The notes under the pieces: model-generated | Seen by the model: only the letters and a program-made list of their open reading frames with translations | Database searches by the model: none | What the model was told of the DNA's origin: nothing | Translations under genes and position numbers: made by a program | Shown here: positions 1,606-9,599 of the stretch, piece by piece | Layout of the letters: each line of letters starts with the position of its first letter | Numbering within the stretch: the stretch's first letter is position 1 | DNA from: Oscillospiraceae bacterium | GTDB lineage: Bacteria; Bacillota; Clostridia; Oscillospirales; Oscillospiraceae | Direction: 5' to 3' | NCBI GenBank assembly: GCA_017461585.1 | Contig: JAFTYM010000026.1 | Coordinates: 1 to 34,625 of the forward strand | DNA: 34,625 nucleotides

Positions 1606-1712
1606 TTCAAATCGGCAGAAATGAATTCCGCCGATTTCAAGAAACAGCTTTGCTGTTTGCTTGTGCGGCGCACCTGCGCCGAGTATAGGGCTGCTTTTTG
1701 ACAGCTTTTTGG
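1565..1712. repeat. Hairpin-rich palindromic repeat module between duplicated phosphatase starts
   Basis: This stretch between the two copies of the phosphatase start is a chain of inverted repeats: CACGGC/GCCGTG, AAATCGGC/GCCGATTT, AAACAGC/GCTGTTT, and CGGCGCA/TGCGCCG with a two-base spacer. It has no coding capacity and resembles the composite palindromic repeats scattered through gut Clostridia genomes. Its edges coincide with the breakpoints of the 57-bp duplication. Confidence 0.65.
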
Positions 1713-1726
1713 GAGGTATATCAATC

Positions 1727-2173
1727 ATGATAAACGTACTTTTCATTTGCCACGGCAATATTTGCCGCAGCCCTATGGGTGAGTTCATATTAAAGGACAT
1801 GGCAGAAAAACGCGGTATTGCCCATAAGTTTTACATAGAGTCCGCTGCAACCAGCACGGAAGAGCTGGGCAATCCCGTCTATCCTCCTGCCCGGCGCAAG
1901 CTGAAAGAGCACGGCATTGACTGCACAGGCAAGACCGCCCGACAGATAACAAAGGCGGACTACAAAAAATTTGACTATATTTTCTGTGCCGACAGCTACA
2001 ACATCAAAAACGCCATGCGCATTTTCGGCGGTGATCCCGAAAACAAGGTCTGCAGGCTGCTTGACCTCACAGATAATCCCCGTGACATCGCAGACCCGTG
2101 GTACACGGGCAACTTTGACATCACATGGGACGATATCGTGGAGGGCTGCAAGGCTTTTCTTGACAGAGTATGA
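1727..2173 (+). CDS. Low-molecular-weight protein-tyrosine phosphatase
   Basis: A 148-residue cytosolic enzyme of the LMW-PTP family (Wzb/YwlE/arsenate-reductase fold) that hydrolyses phosphotyrosine, or in some Gram-positives phosphoarginine, on proteins. The phosphate-binding loop CHGNICRS is at residues 8-15, right at the N terminus as in the family. The general-acid aspartate lies in the DPW motif near residue 123, preceded by the typical DNPRDIADPWYTG stretch. The length is normal. The start at 1727 is preceded by GGGAGGTAT; a longer in-frame start at 1661 would lie in the repeat module. The gene is alone, without a tyrosine kinase beside it, so the substrate is unknown. It is followed by the 280-bp miniature element. 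Confidence 0.92.
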   Translation: MINVLFICHGNICRSPMGEFILKDMAEKRGIAHKFYIESAATSTEELGNPVYPPARRKLKEHGIDCTGKTARQITKADYKKFDYIFCADSYNIKNAMRIFGGDPENKVCRLLDLTDNPRDIADPWYTGNFDITWDDIVEGCKAFLDRV

Positions 2174-2176
2174 AAA

Positions 2177-2487
2177 AAGCAGGTAATCATTAGGGTGTAC
2201 CCGATAAGAAAACATAAGGTTTTGCCTTTATCTATTCGGCTATAATGCAACTTAAAAAATTCGCCAATACATACCAGTATTGGCGGATTTTTGTAAATTG
2301 ATTCTATCTCGAATAGCTTTTGGCAAAACTGCTTGCACTTAAAAAGATAGGTTTTGTTCGTAAACGAGGCAGAAAAGCGCTGTAATACTGTATGTCTTAC
2401 GAGCTTTGATAACGATGTTTACGGGCAAAGAATTTATTTTTAAGCTTATGTTTTCTTATCGGGTACACCCTTTACGATTACCTGCTT
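2177..2487 (-). terminator. Probable terminator hairpin split by the miniature element (copy 1)
   Basis: AAGCAGGTAATC at 2177-2188 is perfectly complementary to GATTACCTGCTT at 2476-2487. On the minus strand the distal arm is followed by a run of six U, as in an intrinsic terminator for the ferredoxin-like gene ending at 2500. The two arms are now separated by the inserted 280-bp element. If a TT target duplication is removed, the original loop would have been ATTAC. Confidence 0.6.
2192..2471. mobile_element. 280-bp miniature inverted-repeat element, copy 1
   Basis: The element begins AGGGTGTACCCGATAAG and ends with the exact inverse; the terminal inverted repeats pair over 27 bp before the first mismatch. 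It has no open frame of note, so it is non-autonomous. The interior carries a hairpin CGCCAATAC/GTATTGGCG flanked by A and T runs. The copy at 7605-7884 has the same length with 19 substitutions by hand count and no indels. It is flanked by TT on both sides and by a 12-bp inverted repeat that belongs to the target site. No transposase for it is visible in the window. Confidence 0.85.
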
Positions 2488-2499
2488 AAATTTATGTAC

Positions 2500-3309
2500 T
2501 TATCTCTCCATGGGAGTATCGCCGAGGTTTACGCTCTTCTCTGTGGAAACACCCTTGAACTCAACAGTTTTAAATCCCTCTGCCCTGACGGTCACATCAA
2601 ATGTGCCTACAGGCAGGTTCTTAAGCCAGAAGTCGCCGAAATCATCTGTCACTGCGGTATATTCCTTACCTTCGCCTACAGCTGTAACCTCTGCGCCGAT
2701 GATGACTTCCTGCTCCACGGGGTCAAACATTGTACCTGCGATGAACTTTCCGGGTACGTTGAGGTAGTAGACCTTAGGGCCTGTTCCCTTTTCACCCTTA
2801 AGTACAACAGCGTCCTTAAGAAGATCGCCGAACTCTTCCTCTTCGCCGAACTTCATGGCATCTGTGGGACATGCCTCTACACATCTGGGAAGCTTTGCTC
2901 CGTTATCCAAAAGATGAGCGCATCCTGTACACTTCTGGGCGATGCTCAGCTCTTCGTTCATATAGATAACATCATAGGGGCAAACCTGGCTGCATGCGCC
3001 GCAGCCGGCACACTCTTCGGGATCTATAAGGACAAGTCCATCCTCCCTTTTTGTAATGGCACTTCTTCCGCAGACCTTTGCGCAGACAGGATCTTCACAA
3101 TGGTTGCAGAGCTGTGCCATATAGTGAATTTTAACTTTGGGTATAGTTCCCTCAACGTGCTCATGCACCTTTACCCAGAACTGACCGATCTGGGGCTGGG
3201 GCTTGGCATAGGGCATCCAATCGTTTCCGCAATGCTCATCCTTACATGCGAGCTGACAGTTATAGCATCCGCTGCATTTGGAAACATCTATTACAAATAC
3301 TTTAGACAT
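2500..3309 (-). CDS. Four-cluster ferredoxin-type electron-transfer subunit, DmsB/transhydroxylase beta-like
   Basis: This 269-residue protein carries electrons between partner proteins through [4Fe-4S] clusters. Sixteen cysteines fall in four groups: CSGCYNCQLAC at residues 12-22, CNHCEDPVC, CAGCGACSQVC and CTGC with CVEAC, the pattern of the small subunits of molybdopterin enzymes (DmsB, PsrB, pyrogallol transhydroxylase BthL). After about residue 175 comes a beta-rich domain of the carboxypeptidase-regulatory/Cna-B type (GAEVTAVGEGKEYTAVTDDFG), an extension also known from the transhydroxylase beta subunit. No molybdopterin catalytic subunit or membrane anchor is adjacent. The start at 3309 is preferred over 3315 because GGAGG lies six bases upstream of it. 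It has no signal peptide. The exact partner is unknown. Confidence 0.85.
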   Translation of the reverse strand: MSKVFVIDVSKCSGCYNCQLACKDEHCGNDWMPYAKPQPQIGQFWVKVHEHVEGTIPKVKIHYMAQLCNHCEDPVCAKVCGRSAITKREDGLVLIDPEECAGCGACSQVCPYDVIYMNEELSIAQKCTGCAHLLDNGAKLPRCVEACPTDAMKFGEEEEFGDLLKDAVVLKGEKGTGPKVYYLNVPGKFIAGTMFDPVEQEVIIGAEVTAVGEGKEYTAVTDDFGDFWLKNLPVGTFDVTVRAEGFKTVEFKGVSTEKSVNLGDTPMER

Positions 3310-3338
3310 AAGCATCCTCCGTTTATCTTTATGTTCTT

Positions 3339-3367
3339 ATTATAAACGCTCTTCTCTTTTCGGTAAA
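3339..3367 (-). promoter_or_regulatory. Candidate sigma-A promoter of the ferredoxin-like gene
   Basis: On the minus strand TTTACC (3362-3367) and TATAAT (3339-3344) are 17 bp apart, and the gene starts 30 bp after the -10 box. The -10 is perfect and the -35 matches moderately. Confidence 0.5.
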
Positions 3368-3382
3368 GGGGAGATTTTTAGT

Positions 3383-3410
3383 GTTGTTACAGCCTATTGG
3401 TTGTAACAAC
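3383..3410. promoter_or_regulatory. 28-bp palindrome between divergent promoters (operator or hairpin)
   Basis: GTTGTTACAGCC and GGTTGTAACAAC form a 12-bp inverted repeat (one G-T pair) around TATT. It is centred about 65 bp upstream of the predicted start of the minus-strand ferredoxin-like transcript and about 55 bp upstream of the rhomboid transcript, where a shared activator could bind. It is followed on the plus strand by a T-rich run, so an intrinsic terminator is the alternative reading. Confidence 0.5.
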
Positions 3411-3416
3411 TTTTTC

Positions 3417-3445
3417 TTTTCAAATGCCTTAATATATATTATAAT
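3417..3445 (+). promoter_or_regulatory. Candidate promoter of the rhomboid gene
   Basis: TATAAT at 3440-3445 lies 17 bp after TTTTCA (3417-3422) and 43 bp before the TTG start of the rhomboid gene. The -10 is perfect and the -35 is weak. Confidence 0.45.
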
Positions 3446-3487
3446 GTATAGTTGAGAGAAAATCCCCATTTGACAGGAGTGAAGTAT

Positions 3488-4060
3488 TTGAGAATAAGAT
3501 ATAATTCCCCGGTAATTCTCACCTTCTCTATCATAAGCTTTATCGTACTGCTTCTGAATGGATTTACCGGCGGTCGGTCAACAGCACTTTTATTCTGTGT
3601 CTACAGGTCATCATTTTCAGATCCTCTTACATATCTGCGAATGTTCCTGCATGTTTTAGGACACAGCAGCCTTTCACATTACATGGGCAACATTCTGCTC
3701 ATGCTGGTGGTAGGTCCTCCCCTTGAAGAAAAATTCGGCAGCAAGTCCATTCTCGGCGCTATTGCCATAACAGCGCTGATCTCAGGTCTTGTACAGTTTT
3801 TCTTTTTCCCCTCTTCCGCCCTTCTGGGCGCATCCGGTATTGTATTCATGCTTATCGTCATGCTGTCCATGACCGGTAAAAACGCAGGCAGCATCCCCCT
3901 CACCATGATATTGGTGCTGGTGCTCTACATCGGACGCGAAGTCTATAACGGCATCACAACTCCCGATAATATCTCCCAGCTGACCCACATCATCGGCGGT
4001 ATCTGCGGCGCTGCTATCGGCAACGTTTTCTACTCAAGAGGCGGAAGGCGTAGGAGGTAA
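3488..4060 (+). CDS. Rhomboid family intramembrane serine protease
   Basis: A 190-residue polytopic membrane protein with about six hydrophobic segments. It shows the rhomboid hallmarks in order: an HxxxN motif in HYMGNILLM, the nucleophile motif GASG (LGASGIVFM), and a later conserved histidine in LTHIIGG, giving the Ser-His dyad. Rhomboids cleave single transmembrane helices of other proteins within the bilayer. The C terminus is basic (RGGRRRR), consistent with a cytoplasmic tail. I choose the TTG at 3488 because AGGAG precedes it at about seven bases; the further upstream TTG at 3452 has no such site. The gene precedes a MATE exporter by 147 bp with its own -10 box, so they are probably separate units. 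Substrate is unknown. Confidence 0.85.
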   Translation: MRIRYNSPVILTFSIISFIVLLLNGFTGGRSTALLFCVYRSSFSDPLTYLRMFLHVLGHSSLSHYMGNILLMLVVGPPLEEKFGSKSILGAIAITALISGLVQFFFFPSSALLGASGIVFMLIVMLSMTGKNAGSIPLTMILVLVLYIGREVYNGITTPDNISQLTHIIGGICGAAIGNVFYSRGGRRRR

Positions 4061-4146
4061 TACTACCAAATTTGCGTATTTTATGTAGTTTGTACAAGAA
4101 AAATCCATACATATTACATAAATCCATTAGCTTTTTCATTGAATGG

Positions 4147-4152
4147 TATAAT
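4147..4152 (+). promoter_or_regulatory. Candidate -10 box upstream of the MATE gene
   Basis: A TATAAT lies 55 bp before the start of the MATE gene at 4208 in an AT-rich spacer. No convincing -35 is seen. It would drive the MATE-crotonase-crotonase unit. Confidence 0.35.
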
Positions 4153-4207
4153 TTAGCGTGTTAAAATTAGTAAAAATGTAGCTTTCACCCCAAGGAGTGG
4201 TATCTAA

Positions 4208-5617
4208 ATGTTCAAAAAGTTCAAAGCGCTCTTCGGCGCTCAGGACATGACCGTAGGCAGCCCCTTAAAGTGCCTTCTCATGTTCTCTGTTCCCCTGCTT
4301 ATAGGCAACTTCGCACAGCTTCTTTACAGCACAGTAGACTCTATCGTTGTCGGCAAATATGTCGGTGACATCGCGCTGTCCGCTATCGGCGTAACCTCGC
4401 CCCTTCAGGCGCTGTTTCTCGTCTTGTTCATGGCAATCGGTTCCGACGTTATGGTCATGGTTTCCCAGTATTTCGGCGCAAAAGAATATGAAAACCTCGA
4501 AAAGTCTATCGGCAACGCAATAACTCTTATTGCCATCGCATCCGTCATCCTCACCGTCGGCGGTCTTCTTCTCACTGACTGGATGCTCACAGCCATCGAG
4601 ACACCTCCCGAGACATACGAAATGGCAAGAACTTATCTTGTAGTCTGCTTCTTCGGTATGGCAGGCAACGGTTTCTACAACATTATGTCCGGTGTTCTCC
4701 GCGGCATGGGCGAGTCCGTATTCCCCCTTATCGTTCTGCTGTTTACAACCGTGCTCAACATCGTTCTTGACCTGTGGTTCGTCGCAGGACTTAACATGGG
4801 CATCGCAGGCGCAGCATGGGCTACTATCATTGGTCAGACTCTCTCTGCTATTGTATGTCTGGCAAAAGTTCTGATGATAAAGGATATCATCAAAATCAAG
4901 CCCCGTCATCTCATACTCAAGAAAGACATCGTCATGAACATTTGCCGTCTCGGAATCCCCAACGGTATTGCACAGGCAGTTATGTTCCTTTCCACAATTA
5001 TCATCCAGCGCCTTATCAACAGCATGGGATACATCGTAACCGCAGCTATCACCGCAGTTTTGCGCGTAGACTCTTTCGCCGTTATCCCCAGCCAGACCTT
5101 CAACATGAGTGTTTCCACATTCACAGGTCAGAACATCGGCGCAGGCAAAATGGACAGAGTTAAGCAGGGTTTTAAGACCTGTATGATACTCGGTCTCATT
5201 GTCACAACCGTAATGGTTATTCTCATGCTTGTATTCGGCAAATGGATGATCGGTCTCTTCACGGAAACACAGGAGCTCATTGATCTTGGTTATAAATTCA
5301 TTATCACAATGCTCCCTGCATACTTCCTTATGACTGTCGGTCAGTCTCTCGGCGGCGTTGTCCGCGGTGCAGGCGACTCTATGGGTCCCATGTGGATCTC
5401 TCTGATCACAAACACAATTATCCGCATCCCCGCTGCATACCTTATCGCACACTTAACAGTAAGTGAGTTGTATCCCCAGGGCGATCCCAGATCCACATTT
5501 ATCGCACTTTCAATCGCAATGGGCTGCAACCTTATCGCATCTCTCGTATACTACTTCAAGGGTCCCTGGAAGAACAAAGCTATCACAGGCTCTCTTGCTC
5601 AGGAAAATCAGAAATAA
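4208..5617 (+). CDS. MATE family efflux transporter
   Basis: A 469-residue membrane protein with twelve predicted hydrophobic segments in two homologous halves. The N terminus (MTVGSPLKCLLMFSVPLL, then YSTVDSIVVGKYVG) and the second-half counterpart GIPNGIAQAVMFLSTIIIQ are characteristic of multi-antimicrobial extrusion proteins, which export cationic drugs or metabolites in exchange for Na+ or H+. GQNIGAGKMDRV is the usual loop of the second half. The ATG at 4208 follows AAGGAGTGG. The gene ends only 19 bp before the first crotonase gene, and no terminator separates them, so the three genes are probably one operon. This suggests export of a product or substrate analogue of those enzymes, but that is inference. 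Confidence 0.9.
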   Translation: MFKKFKALFGAQDMTVGSPLKCLLMFSVPLLIGNFAQLLYSTVDSIVVGKYVGDIALSAIGVTSPLQALFLVLFMAIGSDVMVMVSQYFGAKEYENLEKSIGNAITLIAIASVILTVGGLLLTDWMLTAIETPPETYEMARTYLVVCFFGMAGNGFYNIMSGVLRGMGESVFPLIVLLFTTVLNIVLDLWFVAGLNMGIAGAAWATIIGQTLSAIVCLAKVLMIKDIIKIKPRHLILKKDIVMNICRLGIPNGIAQAVMFLSTIIIQRLINSMGYIVTAAITAVLRVDSFAVIPSQTFNMSVSTFTGQNIGAGKMDRVKQGFKTCMILGLIVTTVMVILMLVFGKWMIGLFTETQELIDLGYKFIITMLPAYFLMTVGQSLGGVVRGAGDSMGPMWISLITNTIIRIPAAYLIAHLTVSELYPQGDPRSTFIALSIAMGCNLIASLVYYFKGPWKNKAITGSLAQENQK

Positions 5618-5636
5618 AACAGGAGGAATATCAAAA

Positions 5637-6422
5637 ATGGCAGAAGGAAGAATTATTGCAGAACGCCGCGGCGGCATTCTTTATCTTACAATAAGCAACC
5701 CTGACTCTTTCAATTCCGTCACAACAGCAATGCGTGAGGATCTTATCCGCAACGTAAGAGAAGCTGAATTTGACGATTCTATCCGCGTTATCGTTCTCAA
5801 AGGCGCAGGCGAAAAGTGCTTCTGCTCCGGACTTTCCATGGAAATGCTGGACAGCATAAGCTGTATGGAAGACCGCCACGAGCAGTGGGTAGTAGGCAAG
5901 CGTATCCGTGAGGCGCTTCAGGAGTCCACAAAGATCCTCGTTGCTGCTGTTAAGGGCTCCTGCGCAGGCAACGCACTTGAGATCTCTCTCTGCTGCGATA
6001 TGGTATTCTGCGCTGAAAACTCCAAGTTCGTTCTCCCCGAGATGAACATCGGCCTCACACCCGGCTGCGGCGGCGCTATCGAGCTCCAGAAGCACATCCC
6101 CTACCACCGCTTCATGGAGATGGTTCTCCTCTGTGACCGCATGTCACCTGCCGAGGCTGTTCACTACGGCTTCGTAAATAAGGTATTCCCCTTAGACACA
6201 ATGGACGAAGAGGTCGATAAGATCCTCGACAAGCTTGCAGCAACTCCCCCCCTTGCAGTCAAGGGTCTTAAAGAGCAGCTCTACCTGCAGGAGAACGTTG
6301 GTATTGAGGCAGCATACAGAAAAGAGTACGATCTCTGCATCGGACTCATGGGCTCCAAGGATTTCCAGAATGCAGTAAAGGCTTTCCTTAAGAAAGAAAA
6401 ACCCGTATTTAAGGGTGAGTAA
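5637..6422 (+). CDS. Crotonase-family enzyme (enoyl-CoA hydratase/isomerase), copy 1
   Basis: A 261-residue cytosolic crotonase-fold protein, acting on acyl-CoA thioesters. The first oxyanion-hole segment is CFCSGLSM (residues 61-68) and the second is KGSCAGNALE. Glu115 and Glu135, twenty residues apart, match the spacing of the two catalytic glutamates of enoyl-CoA hydratases (E144/E164 in the rat enzyme), so hydration or dehydration chemistry is plausible. The substrate is not evident: no acyl-CoA dehydrogenase, thiolase or CoA ligase is adjacent. The ATG at 5637 follows AGGAGG; upstream in-frame codons belong to the MATE gene region. A close paralogue follows 46 bp downstream, so this is a tandem duplication in an operon with the exporter. 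Confidence 0.88.
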   Translation: MAEGRIIAERRGGILYLTISNPDSFNSVTTAMREDLIRNVREAEFDDSIRVIVLKGAGEKCFCSGLSMEMLDSISCMEDRHEQWVVGKRIREALQESTKILVAAVKGSCAGNALEISLCCDMVFCAENSKFVLPEMNIGLTPGCGGAIELQKHIPYHRFMEMVLLCDRMSPAEAVHYGFVNKVFPLDTMDEEVDKILDKLAATPPLAVKGLKEQLYLQENVGIEAAYRKEYDLCIGLMGSKDFQNAVKAFLKKEKPVFKGE

Positions 6423-6468
6423 ACATATATTCCAGCTTTTAGCACACAAAACAGGAGGAAAAACATAA

Positions 6469-7263
6469 ATGTCCGAACCAAGAGTAATTGCAGAACGTCC
6501 ACCTGAAGCTCCCGGAGTTCTGTATCTTACATTCAGCAATCCCGACGCCTTCAACTCTGTAACAGTTGAGATGCGCGAGGAGCTCATCCGTCAGTTCACA
6601 GAGGCAGAAAAAGACGATTCCATCCGCGTCATCGTTCTTCAGGGCGCAGGCGACCGCTGCTTCTGCTCCGGTCTTTCCATGGATATGCTCGTAGACATGA
6701 ACTCCCTTGAAGACCGTTATATCCAGTGGGACGTTGGTAAACGCTGCCGCGAGGCAATGGAACATTCCACAAAAATAGTTGTAGCCGCCGTCAAGGGTTC
6801 CTGTGCAGGTAACGGACTTGAATTCGTCCTTTGCTGCGACCTTGTCTACTGCGCGGACAACACAAAGTTTGTCCTTCCGGAATTCAACATCGGTCTTACT
6901 CCCGGCTGCGGCGGTGCTATTTCCCTGCATAAGCACATCCCTTATCACCGTTTTATGGAGATGGTGCTCTTCTGCGACCGTATGTATCCCGATGAGGCTA
7001 AGCACTACGGCTTCGTTAACGACATCTTCGCTCTTGACGAATTTGATTATGAGGTCAAAAAGCGTATGATCCAGCTTTCCAAGACAGCGCCCCTCGCTGT
7101 TAAGGGACTTAAGGAGCAGTTCCGTATTCAGGAGACTCTGGGCTTTGAAGCTGCGTACAGAAAGGAAATGGAAAACAGCCTGAAGTTGATGGATACCAAC
7201 GACTTCAAAAATGCCGTCATGTCCTTTATCAACAAGGAAAACCCCATTTTCTACGGAAACTAA
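6469..7263 (+). CDS. Crotonase-family enzyme (enoyl-CoA hydratase/isomerase), copy 2
   Basis: A 264-residue paralogue of the preceding gene, collinear except for three extra residues near the N terminus (RPPEAPG). It keeps CFCSGLSM and KGSCAGNGLE, and both acidic residues (Glu118 and Glu138), so both copies look active. The two proteins differ mainly in surface helices and the C-terminal 40 residues, suggesting division of labour (for example two subunits of one hexamer, or two substrates) rather than simple redundancy. An AGGAGG site precedes the ATG. A strong terminator follows eight bases after the stop, closing the operon. Specific reaction and pathway are unknown. Confidence 0.88.
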   Translation: MSEPRVIAERPPEAPGVLYLTFSNPDAFNSVTVEMREELIRQFTEAEKDDSIRVIVLQGAGDRCFCSGLSMDMLVDMNSLEDRYIQWDVGKRCREAMEHSTKIVVAAVKGSCAGNGLEFVLCCDLVYCADNTKFVLPEFNIGLTPGCGGAISLHKHIPYHRFMEMVLFCDRMYPDEAKHYGFVNDIFALDEFDYEVKKRMIQLSKTAPLAVKGLKEQFRIQETLGFEAAYRKEMENSLKLMDTNDFKNAVMSFINKENPIFYGN

Positions 7264-7270
7264 AATGCAA

Positions 7271-7298
7271 AACACCCGAGATTTCTCGGGTGTTTTTT
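7271..7298 (+). terminator. Intrinsic terminator of the MATE-crotonase operon
   Basis: AACACCCGAG and CTCGGGTGTT form a perfect 10-bp stem with an ATTT loop, followed by a T run. Confidence 0.92.
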
Positions 7299-7330
7299 GT
7301 TGTTTTGGTGCGAAGTATCAATTGTGCAGT

Positions 7331-7577
7331 TGTAGTGGGCGACGTCCTCGACGCCCCTTTTGTAAAAATTCGCATAAGCTATCAGCGCGTGCGTAGGGGA
7401 GGGTCTCTGCGCCCTCCCTTTAGCAGGCGATTCGTGAATCGCCCCTACTTGGCTTTCCCTTAGGGAGAGCTGTCACCGCAAGGTGACTGAGAGTTTTTTA
7501 TCACGGCATGGATAAATCCATGCCCTACGGGGATGCATTTTATTTGGTGCATCGTAGGGAACGGATAAACCGCTCCC
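7331..7577. repeat. Cluster of seven consecutive palindromic repeat modules
   Basis: Back-to-back hairpins fill this non-coding stretch: 7331-7364 (GGGCG/CGCCC), 7396-7418 (GGGAGGG/CCCTCCC), 7426-7443 (GGCGATTC/GAATCGCC), 7451-7493 (a double hairpin with TGTCACCGCAAGGTGACTGA), 7505-7524 (GGCATGGAT/ATCCATGCC), 7532-7553 (GATGCA/TGCATC) and 7557-7577 (GGGAACGG/CCGCTCCC). Several are joined by GTAGGG or CCCTAC words. Such mosaics are common in gut Clostridia and are presumably mobilised REP-like elements. No gene is present. Confidence 0.75.
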
Positions 7578-7590
7578 TTTACAATATTAA

Positions 7591-7900
7591 AAACGGCATG
7601 GTTTAGGGTGAACCCGATAAGAAAACATAAGGTTTTGCCTTTATCTATTCGGATATAATGCAACTTAAAAAATCCGCCAATACATACCAGTATGGGCGGA
7701 TGTTTATAAGCTGTTTCTATCTCGAATAGCTTGTGGCAAAACTGCTTGCACTTAAAAAGATAGATTTTGTTCGTAAACGAGGAAAAAAAGCGCAGTAATA
7801 CTGTATGTCTTACAAGCTTTGATAACGATGTTTACGGGCAAAGGATTTCTTTTTAAGCTTATGTTTTCTTGTCGGGTTCACCCTTTTCACCATGCCGTTT
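7591..7900 (-). terminator. Probable ATP synthase operon terminator split by the miniature element (copy 2)
   Basis: AAACGGCATGGT at 7591-7602 is perfectly complementary to ACCATGCCGTTT at 7889-7900. Read on the minus strand the hairpin starts five bases after the atpC stop, and its distal arm ends in five U, as for an intrinsic terminator. The arms are separated by the 280-bp element; without it and a TT duplication the loop would be TTTC. A GGCATGG palindrome also occurs in the neighbouring repeat cluster, so a REP-like origin is an alternative. Confidence 0.6.
7605..7884. mobile_element. 280-bp miniature inverted-repeat element, copy 2
   Basis: Same length and orientation as the copy at 2192-2471, with 19 substitutions by hand count. 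It starts AGGGTGAACCCGATAAG and ends CTTGTCGGGTTCACCCT. The terminal repeats still pair: a T-A pair in copy 1 is an A-T pair here, and one T-A has become a T-G. Internal hairpin CCGCCAATAC/GTATGGGCGG is retained with one mismatch. TT flanks both ends. Confidence 0.85.
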
Positions 7901-7905
7901 AATTA

Positions 7906-9599
<1,694 letters not shown>

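Follow-up and report, generated by a model that had tools for sequence, protein, structure and literature searches.

Terminator loops as insertion sites of a mini-element in an Oscillospiraceae genome, with a probable link to large DUF4368 serine recombinases

The window analyzed here, a 34,625-nucleotide stretch of an Oscillospiraceae bacterium (assembly GCA_017461585.1, contig JAFTYM010000026.1), contains two copies of a 280-bp mini-element, each of which splits a terminator-like hairpin at its loop. Across the host assembly (G000; 2.07 Mb, 54 contigs, 79% complete, with the window as contig C9), the mini-element occupies intrinsic terminators at their loops; in most cases both junctions show a 2-bp TT/AA core, and the core has a preferred polarity. 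Terminator hairpins are likewise split by large elements that encode a DUF4368 serine recombinase, and the loci differ from genome to genome. In our view, the mini-element is probably a non-autonomous element that is mobilized in trans by a large serine recombinase that targets terminators and belongs to the DUF4368 (multi-targeting, TndX-like) clade.

Insertion of the mini-element in terminator loops

The features of the two insertions in the window are as follows, with strand given where one was assigned:

2192 to 2471, plus strand: mini-element copy 1, 280 bp
7605 to 7884, plus strand: mini-element copy 2, 280 bp, differing from copy 1 at 19/280 positions
2192 to 2221, plus strand: left terminal inverted repeat of copy 1, a proposed recombinase half-site, containing ATAAGAAAACAT
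2442 to 2471, minus strand: right terminal inverted repeat of copy 1, matching the left repeat at 97%
7605 to 7634, plus strand: left terminal inverted repeat of copy 2
7855 to 7884, minus strand: right terminal inverted repeat of copy 2
2177 to 2188: left arm of the split terminator at site 1, AAGCAGGTAATC
2476 to 2487: right arm of the split terminator at site 1, GATTACCTGCTT
7591 to 7602: left arm of the split terminator at site 2, AAACGGCATGGT
7889 to 7900: right arm of the split terminator at site 2, ACCATGCCGTTT
2190 to 2191: TT core, left copy, site 1
2472 to 2473: TT core, right copy, site 1
7603 to 7604: TT core, left copy, site 2
7885 to 7886: TT core, right copy, site 2

An earlier, sequence-only reading of the window had described two copies of equal length with 19 differences, each flanked by TT and a perfect 12-bp inverted repeat, and hairpins that are restored once the element is removed. 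All of this was borne out: a recount returned 280 bp for each copy and the same 19 differences, both sites read as claimed, and the rejoined flanks (with one TT kept) fold into hairpins of -18.1 kcal/mol at site 1 and -18.9 kcal/mol at site 2, with loops of 5 and 4 nt, respectively.

The 26-bp end of the mini-element has 86 matches in G000 at three or fewer mismatches, as compared with 0 for the reversed pattern. Many contigs end inside mini-element copies, which identifies the mini-element as a repeat that breaks the G000 assembly. In stretches fetched around the G000 ends, 89 end matches were recovered at up to 7 mismatches; 81 flanks were retained after dropping one match with 6 mismatches, three with too short a flank, and four whose side, left or right, could not be assigned.

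Both flanks could be read for 12 copies. For these, the element and one core copy were removed and the flanks joined; joins between left and right flanks of different copies served as the control. Own joins average -19.6 kcal/mol and mismatched joins -6.6 kcal/mol, and 0/20,000 permutations reach the observed mean. For 11 of the 12 copies, the restored hairpin folds at -15 kcal/mol or lower. These data support the proposal of the sequence-only reading that intrinsic terminators are the targets and are split in the loop. That reading had also named copies lying outside inverted repeats as evidence against its proposal; one of the 12 resolved copies falls outside a strong hairpin.

Comparison of flanks across copies gives a similar picture. 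A common word of at least 12 nt, with at least four G/C and an offset of no more than 4, is found in 23/1634 left-right flank pairs, against 7/1606 pairs of the same type, in which the flanks necessarily come from separate copies. Of the 23 pairs, eight combine both sides of a resolved copy, and the other 15 lie between contigs. Matching left-right flank arms at G000 contig ends (e.g., C17/C27, C34/C50, C39/C53, and C20/C44) suggest contig joins.

The mini-element shares several properties of miniature inverted-repeat transposable elements (MITEs): it is short (280 bp), multi-copy (86 ends), bounded by 30-bp terminal inverted repeats at 97%, and flanked by a short target duplication of 2 bp, the dinucleotide being identical on both sides in 10/12 copies. 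An autonomous parent with the same ends was not seen in the 79% complete assembly. Two variants were noted among the G000 copies. A 55-bp copy (L094 575-629; C23:22574-22628) is scarcely more than the two end repeats, yet stands in a strong terminator hairpin; and at two loci (L129 and L067, on C47 and C1) a normal left half lies beside a different middle segment, which suggests exchange between element versions.

The region 3' of the orthologous 4Fe-4S gene (the gene beside site 1; see below) was compared in four relatives of the same genus, none of which carries the mini-element. These sites are positional equivalents and not alignable empty sites. An intact, insert-free terminator with a T-run is present in two relatives (G004 and G002); in G001 a GC-rich hairpin lies further downstream, some 85 nt from the 4Fe-4S gene, and none is evident in G003.

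Sequence and structure at the target

Read toward the element, most flanks pass from an A-tract through a GC-rich arm to TT or AA. The A-tracts at -17 to -14 and the TT/AA core are strongly conserved, with A at -15 in 70/81 flanks; the information content of stem positions -13 to -3 does not exceed 0.29 bits (81 flanks). TT precedes the left end in 33/43 cases and AA precedes the right end in 34/38, with the remainder deviating; insertion orientation is therefore largely set by the core. The sequence-only reading had pointed out that both window copies have the same orientation relative to the terminator. This is correct for both sites, but follows from core polarity. The conserved A-tracts and TT/AA core would fit a recombinase dimer on a symmetric duplex site of about 40 bp.

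Scanning 435 kb of G000 for a loose A-tract/core/T-tract motif gives 566 occurrences, 197 of these outside predicted frames. Strong hairpins (-15 or below) are present at only 39/197 of the non-coding motif sites, as compared with 11/12 real sites. This difference bears on the possibility of near-random insertion, with selection keeping only the copies in terminators. Terminator loops are likely harmless and the folded element is predicted to be able to preserve termination, as such an account would have it; however, chance placement does not sit well with the constant spacing of the A-tract and the TT/AA core that most copies show, or with the shortfall of hairpins at the loose-motif sites, and we regard this explanation as highly improbable.

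A half-site matrix, built from single half-sites and thus holding no pairing information, was trained on 55/60 eligible half-sites (those ending in TT or AA), with the 12 test copies excluded. In a scan of 435 kb, sites scoring at least 18 carry strong hairpins at 20/23 non-coding and 1/5 coding positions. Among non-coding sites, hairpins are found in 41/65 at scores of at least 14, in 60/272 at scores of at least 8, and in 19/207 at scores of 8-14. The matrix finds terminators without pairing information, so that a dimer reading duplex DNA could locate terminators from sequence; it was also learned from terminator arms, so that it leaves room for structure reading and does not separate the two modes.

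The second mode would have a serine recombinase read the hairpin itself, as an extruded cruciform or a folded single strand, in place of a duplex A-tract/core/T-tract. Such reading could account for stem positions that carry so little information and yet match each other between the two arms, and for the hairpins at both of the two lowest-scoring real sites of the 12 (9.2 and 12.8), in a score band where hairpins are otherwise uncommon. Serine recombinases, however, act on duplex sites, and the retrieval of terminators by a structure-blind matrix, albeit one trained on terminator arms, also weighs against it; we hold structure reading to be rather unlikely. Of the interpretation put forward by the sequence-only reading, the targeting of terminators holds, and the recognition of their secondary structure is one of two candidate modes.

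Genomic setting of the two sites

Three host genes border the insertions:

1661 to 2173, plus strand: low-molecular-weight tyrosine phosphatase (PF01451), 5' of site 1
2500 to 3315, minus strand: 4Fe-4S dicluster protein (PF13247), 3' end toward site 1
7906 to 8169, minus strand: ATP synthase epsilon chain (PF02823), 3' end toward site 2

As had been claimed, both insertions lie 3' of minus-strand genes (those for the 4Fe-4S protein and ATP synthase epsilon), and placement beyond coding regions holds for the insertions in the window. Site 1 lies 3' of the plus-strand phosphatase gene as well, which places its terminator between convergent genes. An unoccupied terminator with an A-tract, TT core, and T-tract lies at 7260-7305 and is among the best-scoring candidate target sites of the half-site matrix. 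A cluster of other short inverted repeats was seen by eye just left of site 2 (7400-7580).

Large elements with a DUF4368 serine recombinase

In three genomes (G423, G562, and G641), the end motif closes a conjugative-type element of 30.5-32.3 kb with a recombinase at one end. The last gene of these elements is an open frame of at least 611 residues, followed by a terminator-like hairpin and then by the element end. A domain scan of G641 only places Resolvase (PF00239), Recombinase (PF07508), zinc-ribbon (PF13408), and DUF4368 (PF14287) domains in the recombinase. Both ends of the large elements in these genomes read AATAAGAAAACAT or GATAAGAAAACAT where the mini-element has GATAAGAAAACAT, and ATAAGAAAACAT, 12 bp from the junction, is common to the large-element ends and the mini-element. 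All three elements split a terminator at its loop (folds of -17.5, -21.4, and -23.1).

A scan of named genomes returned 77 relatives of the recombinase. Among 24 motif-bearing recombinase right ends, which lie in 24 different targets, a T-run of at least 4 occurs 6-24 nt past the core in 21/24; a control window 100 nt further out has such a run in 0/24. Rejoined flanks were then folded for 16 large-element sites. Of 23 genomes with ends, seven were left out for a missing or ambiguous partner end (G753, G755, G756, G761, G762, G763, and G766), and all 8 recognized same-contig pairs were retained. Own joins average -23.5 kcal/mol against -11.9 for mismatched joins, with 0/20,000 permutations at the observed mean, and 15/16 sites fold at -12 kcal/mol or below, as compared with 105/240 mismatched joins; in G770, arm similarity decided which of two right ends to pair, a choice that favors the terminator hypothesis. 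Some of the differences between the arms of the two sides, e.g., in G768 and G767, are of a kind that keeps G-U pairs.

More distant relatives of the recombinase (L271-L273 and L282) seem, by eye, to end near tRNA genes and not at terminator arms.

Predicted fold of the mini-element

Structure prediction indicates that the mini-element has a conserved whole-length hairpin and a terminator-like hairpin of its own. Each strand is predicted to fold into one long hairpin (z of -14.2 and -13.05). The internal terminator-like hairpins, called from sequence and fold, are as follows:

2254 to 2293: internal terminator-like hairpin of copy 1, with A-run and T-run
7667 to 7706: internal terminator-like hairpin of copy 2, with the T-run interrupted on the plus strand

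The two G000 copies align on one common plan with the mini-elements of G027, G523, and a phage-labelled record (MT835783), despite different ends. Across these four families, 64/114 consensus pairs show changes on both sides, as compared with 27.9 +/- 3.8 in shuffles and 11-17 in slid controls, a test that used five sequences (two of them from G000) with the structure predicted from the same five and so favors covariation. Internal helices 2, 3, 5, and 6 covary, and helix 4 is invariant; the covariation of helix 1, which is formed by the terminal repeats, may instead reflect one enzyme binding both ends.

When either strand is folded with the insertion included, the prediction for site 1 and site 2 alike is that the target arms pair around the stem of the element. 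If this pairing occurs, the split terminators may still function, their arms re-paired by the fold of the element. A search of Rfam gave 0 matches above gathering score in the window, and below threshold only two miRNA models.

Distribution and related mini-element families

DNA relatives of the mini-element at E 1e-6 or better were found in 3/394 genomes of the order, namely G000 and two of one other genus. None were found in plasmids, and the exact end pattern was not found in viral contigs. The phage-labelled record MT835783 matches the mini-element at 72% over 13-179. In this unannotated 18-kb bacteriophage-labelled record (L192), the related mini-element stands between arms AAAAAGCACCG and CGGTGCTTTTT, and the frames beside it look bacterial by eye.

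A structure model of the right half matches 128/394 genomes of the order at E 1e-5 or better; this figure is an upper guide, the model being mostly one long hairpin scored without a decoy control. Four multi-copy genomes (G258, G095, G368, and G203) were read for target sites, with G203 left out of scoring because its ends are unclear. In G258, 3/5 sites fold at -14 or below, with an own mean of -14.2 against -8.6 for mismatched joins. In G095, the corresponding means are -18.9 and -13.4; by eye, two sites are clear terminators (L429 and L432), one is partial (L428), and two are not (L430 and L431). In G027 and G070, 37 distinct ends were read, and arms common to the two sides were noted on visual inspection only.

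Mobilization of the mini-element

The end of the G000 mini-element equals the right end of the G562 large element at 21/24 positions, and an end of a G095 mini-element equals the G641 right end, also at 21/24; the two kinds of element have an end motif in common, but no recombinase element with identical ends was found. Mini-elements and large elements also share a 2-bp core and the same target type (11/12 mini-element copies; 15/16 large-element sites at -12 or below). The mini-element appears tied to the large elements by end sequence, core, and target, and not by a common copy, and it is from this resemblance that we infer mobilization.

Under the proposed mechanism, the terminal inverted repeats would represent two attP half-sites. 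A recombinase dimer would take a bidirectional terminator of about 40 bp (A-tract, stem, TT/AA loop, stem, T-tract) as attB, with TT/AA as the crossover dinucleotide, and the helper recombinase need not be resident in the host. As the mini-element folds on itself, the split terminator arms would be reunited in the transcript and the insertion would do little harm.

A DDE insertion sequence might instead be the mover, as with IS1630 of the IS30 family. DDE elements usually have terminal inverted repeats some 30 bp long and duplicate a short target sequence, as seen here, and IS1630 is said to take rho-independent terminators as targets, which would provide a precedent. However, the end motif and core match those of serine-recombinase elements. 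No long duplicated inverted-repeat target of the IS1630 kind was found, only the 2-bp core; in M. fermentans M64, duplications measure 16-26 bp in 4/7 complete IS1630 copies. A search of 7 genomes, including G000, G027, and G070, recovered no IS30-type transposase (0/7; the model matches 3/14 control genomes, and other DDE families were unsearched). A DDE mover thus seems improbable to us, and the IS30-type parent was rejected on the basis of this search. Two recombinase relatives in G000, on C48 (37%) and C22 (41%; frame with a stop), were likewise rejected as resident helpers, as no matching end lies within the 2.8 and 3.9 kb inspected, respectively.

Several observations weigh against mobilization by a terminator-targeting DUF4368 recombinase, among them this lack of matching ends beside the C48 and C22 genes. 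G000 (79% complete) yielded no recombinase element whose ends are those of the mini-element; the ends there run inward into mini-element sequence (14 bases read). G523, which carries a related mini-element, lacks a good recombinase match; and the ends of the G027, G070, and G258 mini-elements are of a different type (AGGGCG...) that was matched to no recombinase element. An end-motif search over 400 genomes of the family (Oscillospiraceae) gave end-like matches in 10 genomes besides G000, as compared with 19/400 genomes for the reversed control; since this first scan was not above chance, the link to the large elements rests on the reading of loci and on the later tests of ends and targets. 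As to the target, one G000 copy (C21:38374; 193 bp) is an exception at only -11.4 kcal/mol, and of the 16 large-element sites G754 (-6.9) fails and G751 (-13.6) is weak. The design of the covariation test, as described above, belongs here as well. Finally, the G368 mini-elements (L418-L422), which have the same fold and other ends, lie in terminators at 0/5 sites (own mean -6.7; mismatched -8.0). Because this body with other ends misses terminators, targeting seems tied to the ends and not to the body.

Relation to known systems and implications

Within the multi-targeting recombinase clade, 63% carry DUF4368 (Durrant et al. 2022, PMC10083194). The same source describes one multi-targeting example in which T- and A-enriched sides flank a TT core; for Cp36 the 5' side is A-rich, the core AA, and the 3' side T-rich. 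The elements described here resemble these recombinases in their DUF4368 domain, TT/AA core, and A-/T-enriched sides, as far as the published main text describes them. The words terminator, hairpin, and palindrom are absent from that main text; in contrast to it, the target here is shown as a terminator split at the loop, and non-autonomous relatives do not appear in the portion of the paper examined.

TnpX of Tn4451/Tn4453 is a large serine recombinase with a 2-bp target site, and Tn6104 is flanked by a 2-bp direct repeat (PMC3158075). On the main text of that source, in which terminator and hairpin have 0 occurrences, Tn4451/Tn4453 and the Tn6104-type Clostridium elements are alike in combining a large serine recombinase with a 2-bp target site; unlike the mini-element, they are large and encode their own recombinase. 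By its title, the report on IS1630 of Mycoplasma fermentans (IS30 family) describes an element that targets and duplicates inverted repeats. Inverted-repeat targets are a point of likeness, whereas the IS30-type transposase and long duplications of IS1630 differ from a terminator split with a 2-bp duplication.

Insertion sequences are the main source of prokaryotic MITEs according to a review (PMC10969869), in which neither "serine" nor "recombinase" occurs. SPRITE, BOX, and RUP of Streptococcus pneumoniae and other MITEs are similarly small, structured intergenic repeats, SPRITE being terminator-like by name; unlike them, the mini-element has ends that point to a serine recombinase and a target that is a terminator loop. 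Our literature search, limited to open-licence papers, found no publication that combines these facts.

A broader claim is that the DUF4368 multi-targeting clade is terminator-targeting in general, with bidirectional terminators as attB, and is parasitized by mini-elements widespread in the order that re-pair the split terminators via a covarying hairpin; we hold the case for and against it to be evenly balanced. For work on broken assemblies, split-terminator flanks provide hints at contig joins. If the proposed mechanism is correct, serine recombinases would join the enzymes that mobilize bacterial MITEs, and the site choice of a large recombinase clade in bacteria, one already tried in genome engineering, would be explained. 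Stop signals would offer such elements sites that are numerous, intergenic, and tolerant, and the order of A-tract, stem, TT/AA loop, stem, and T-tract would amount to a rule for harmless integration.

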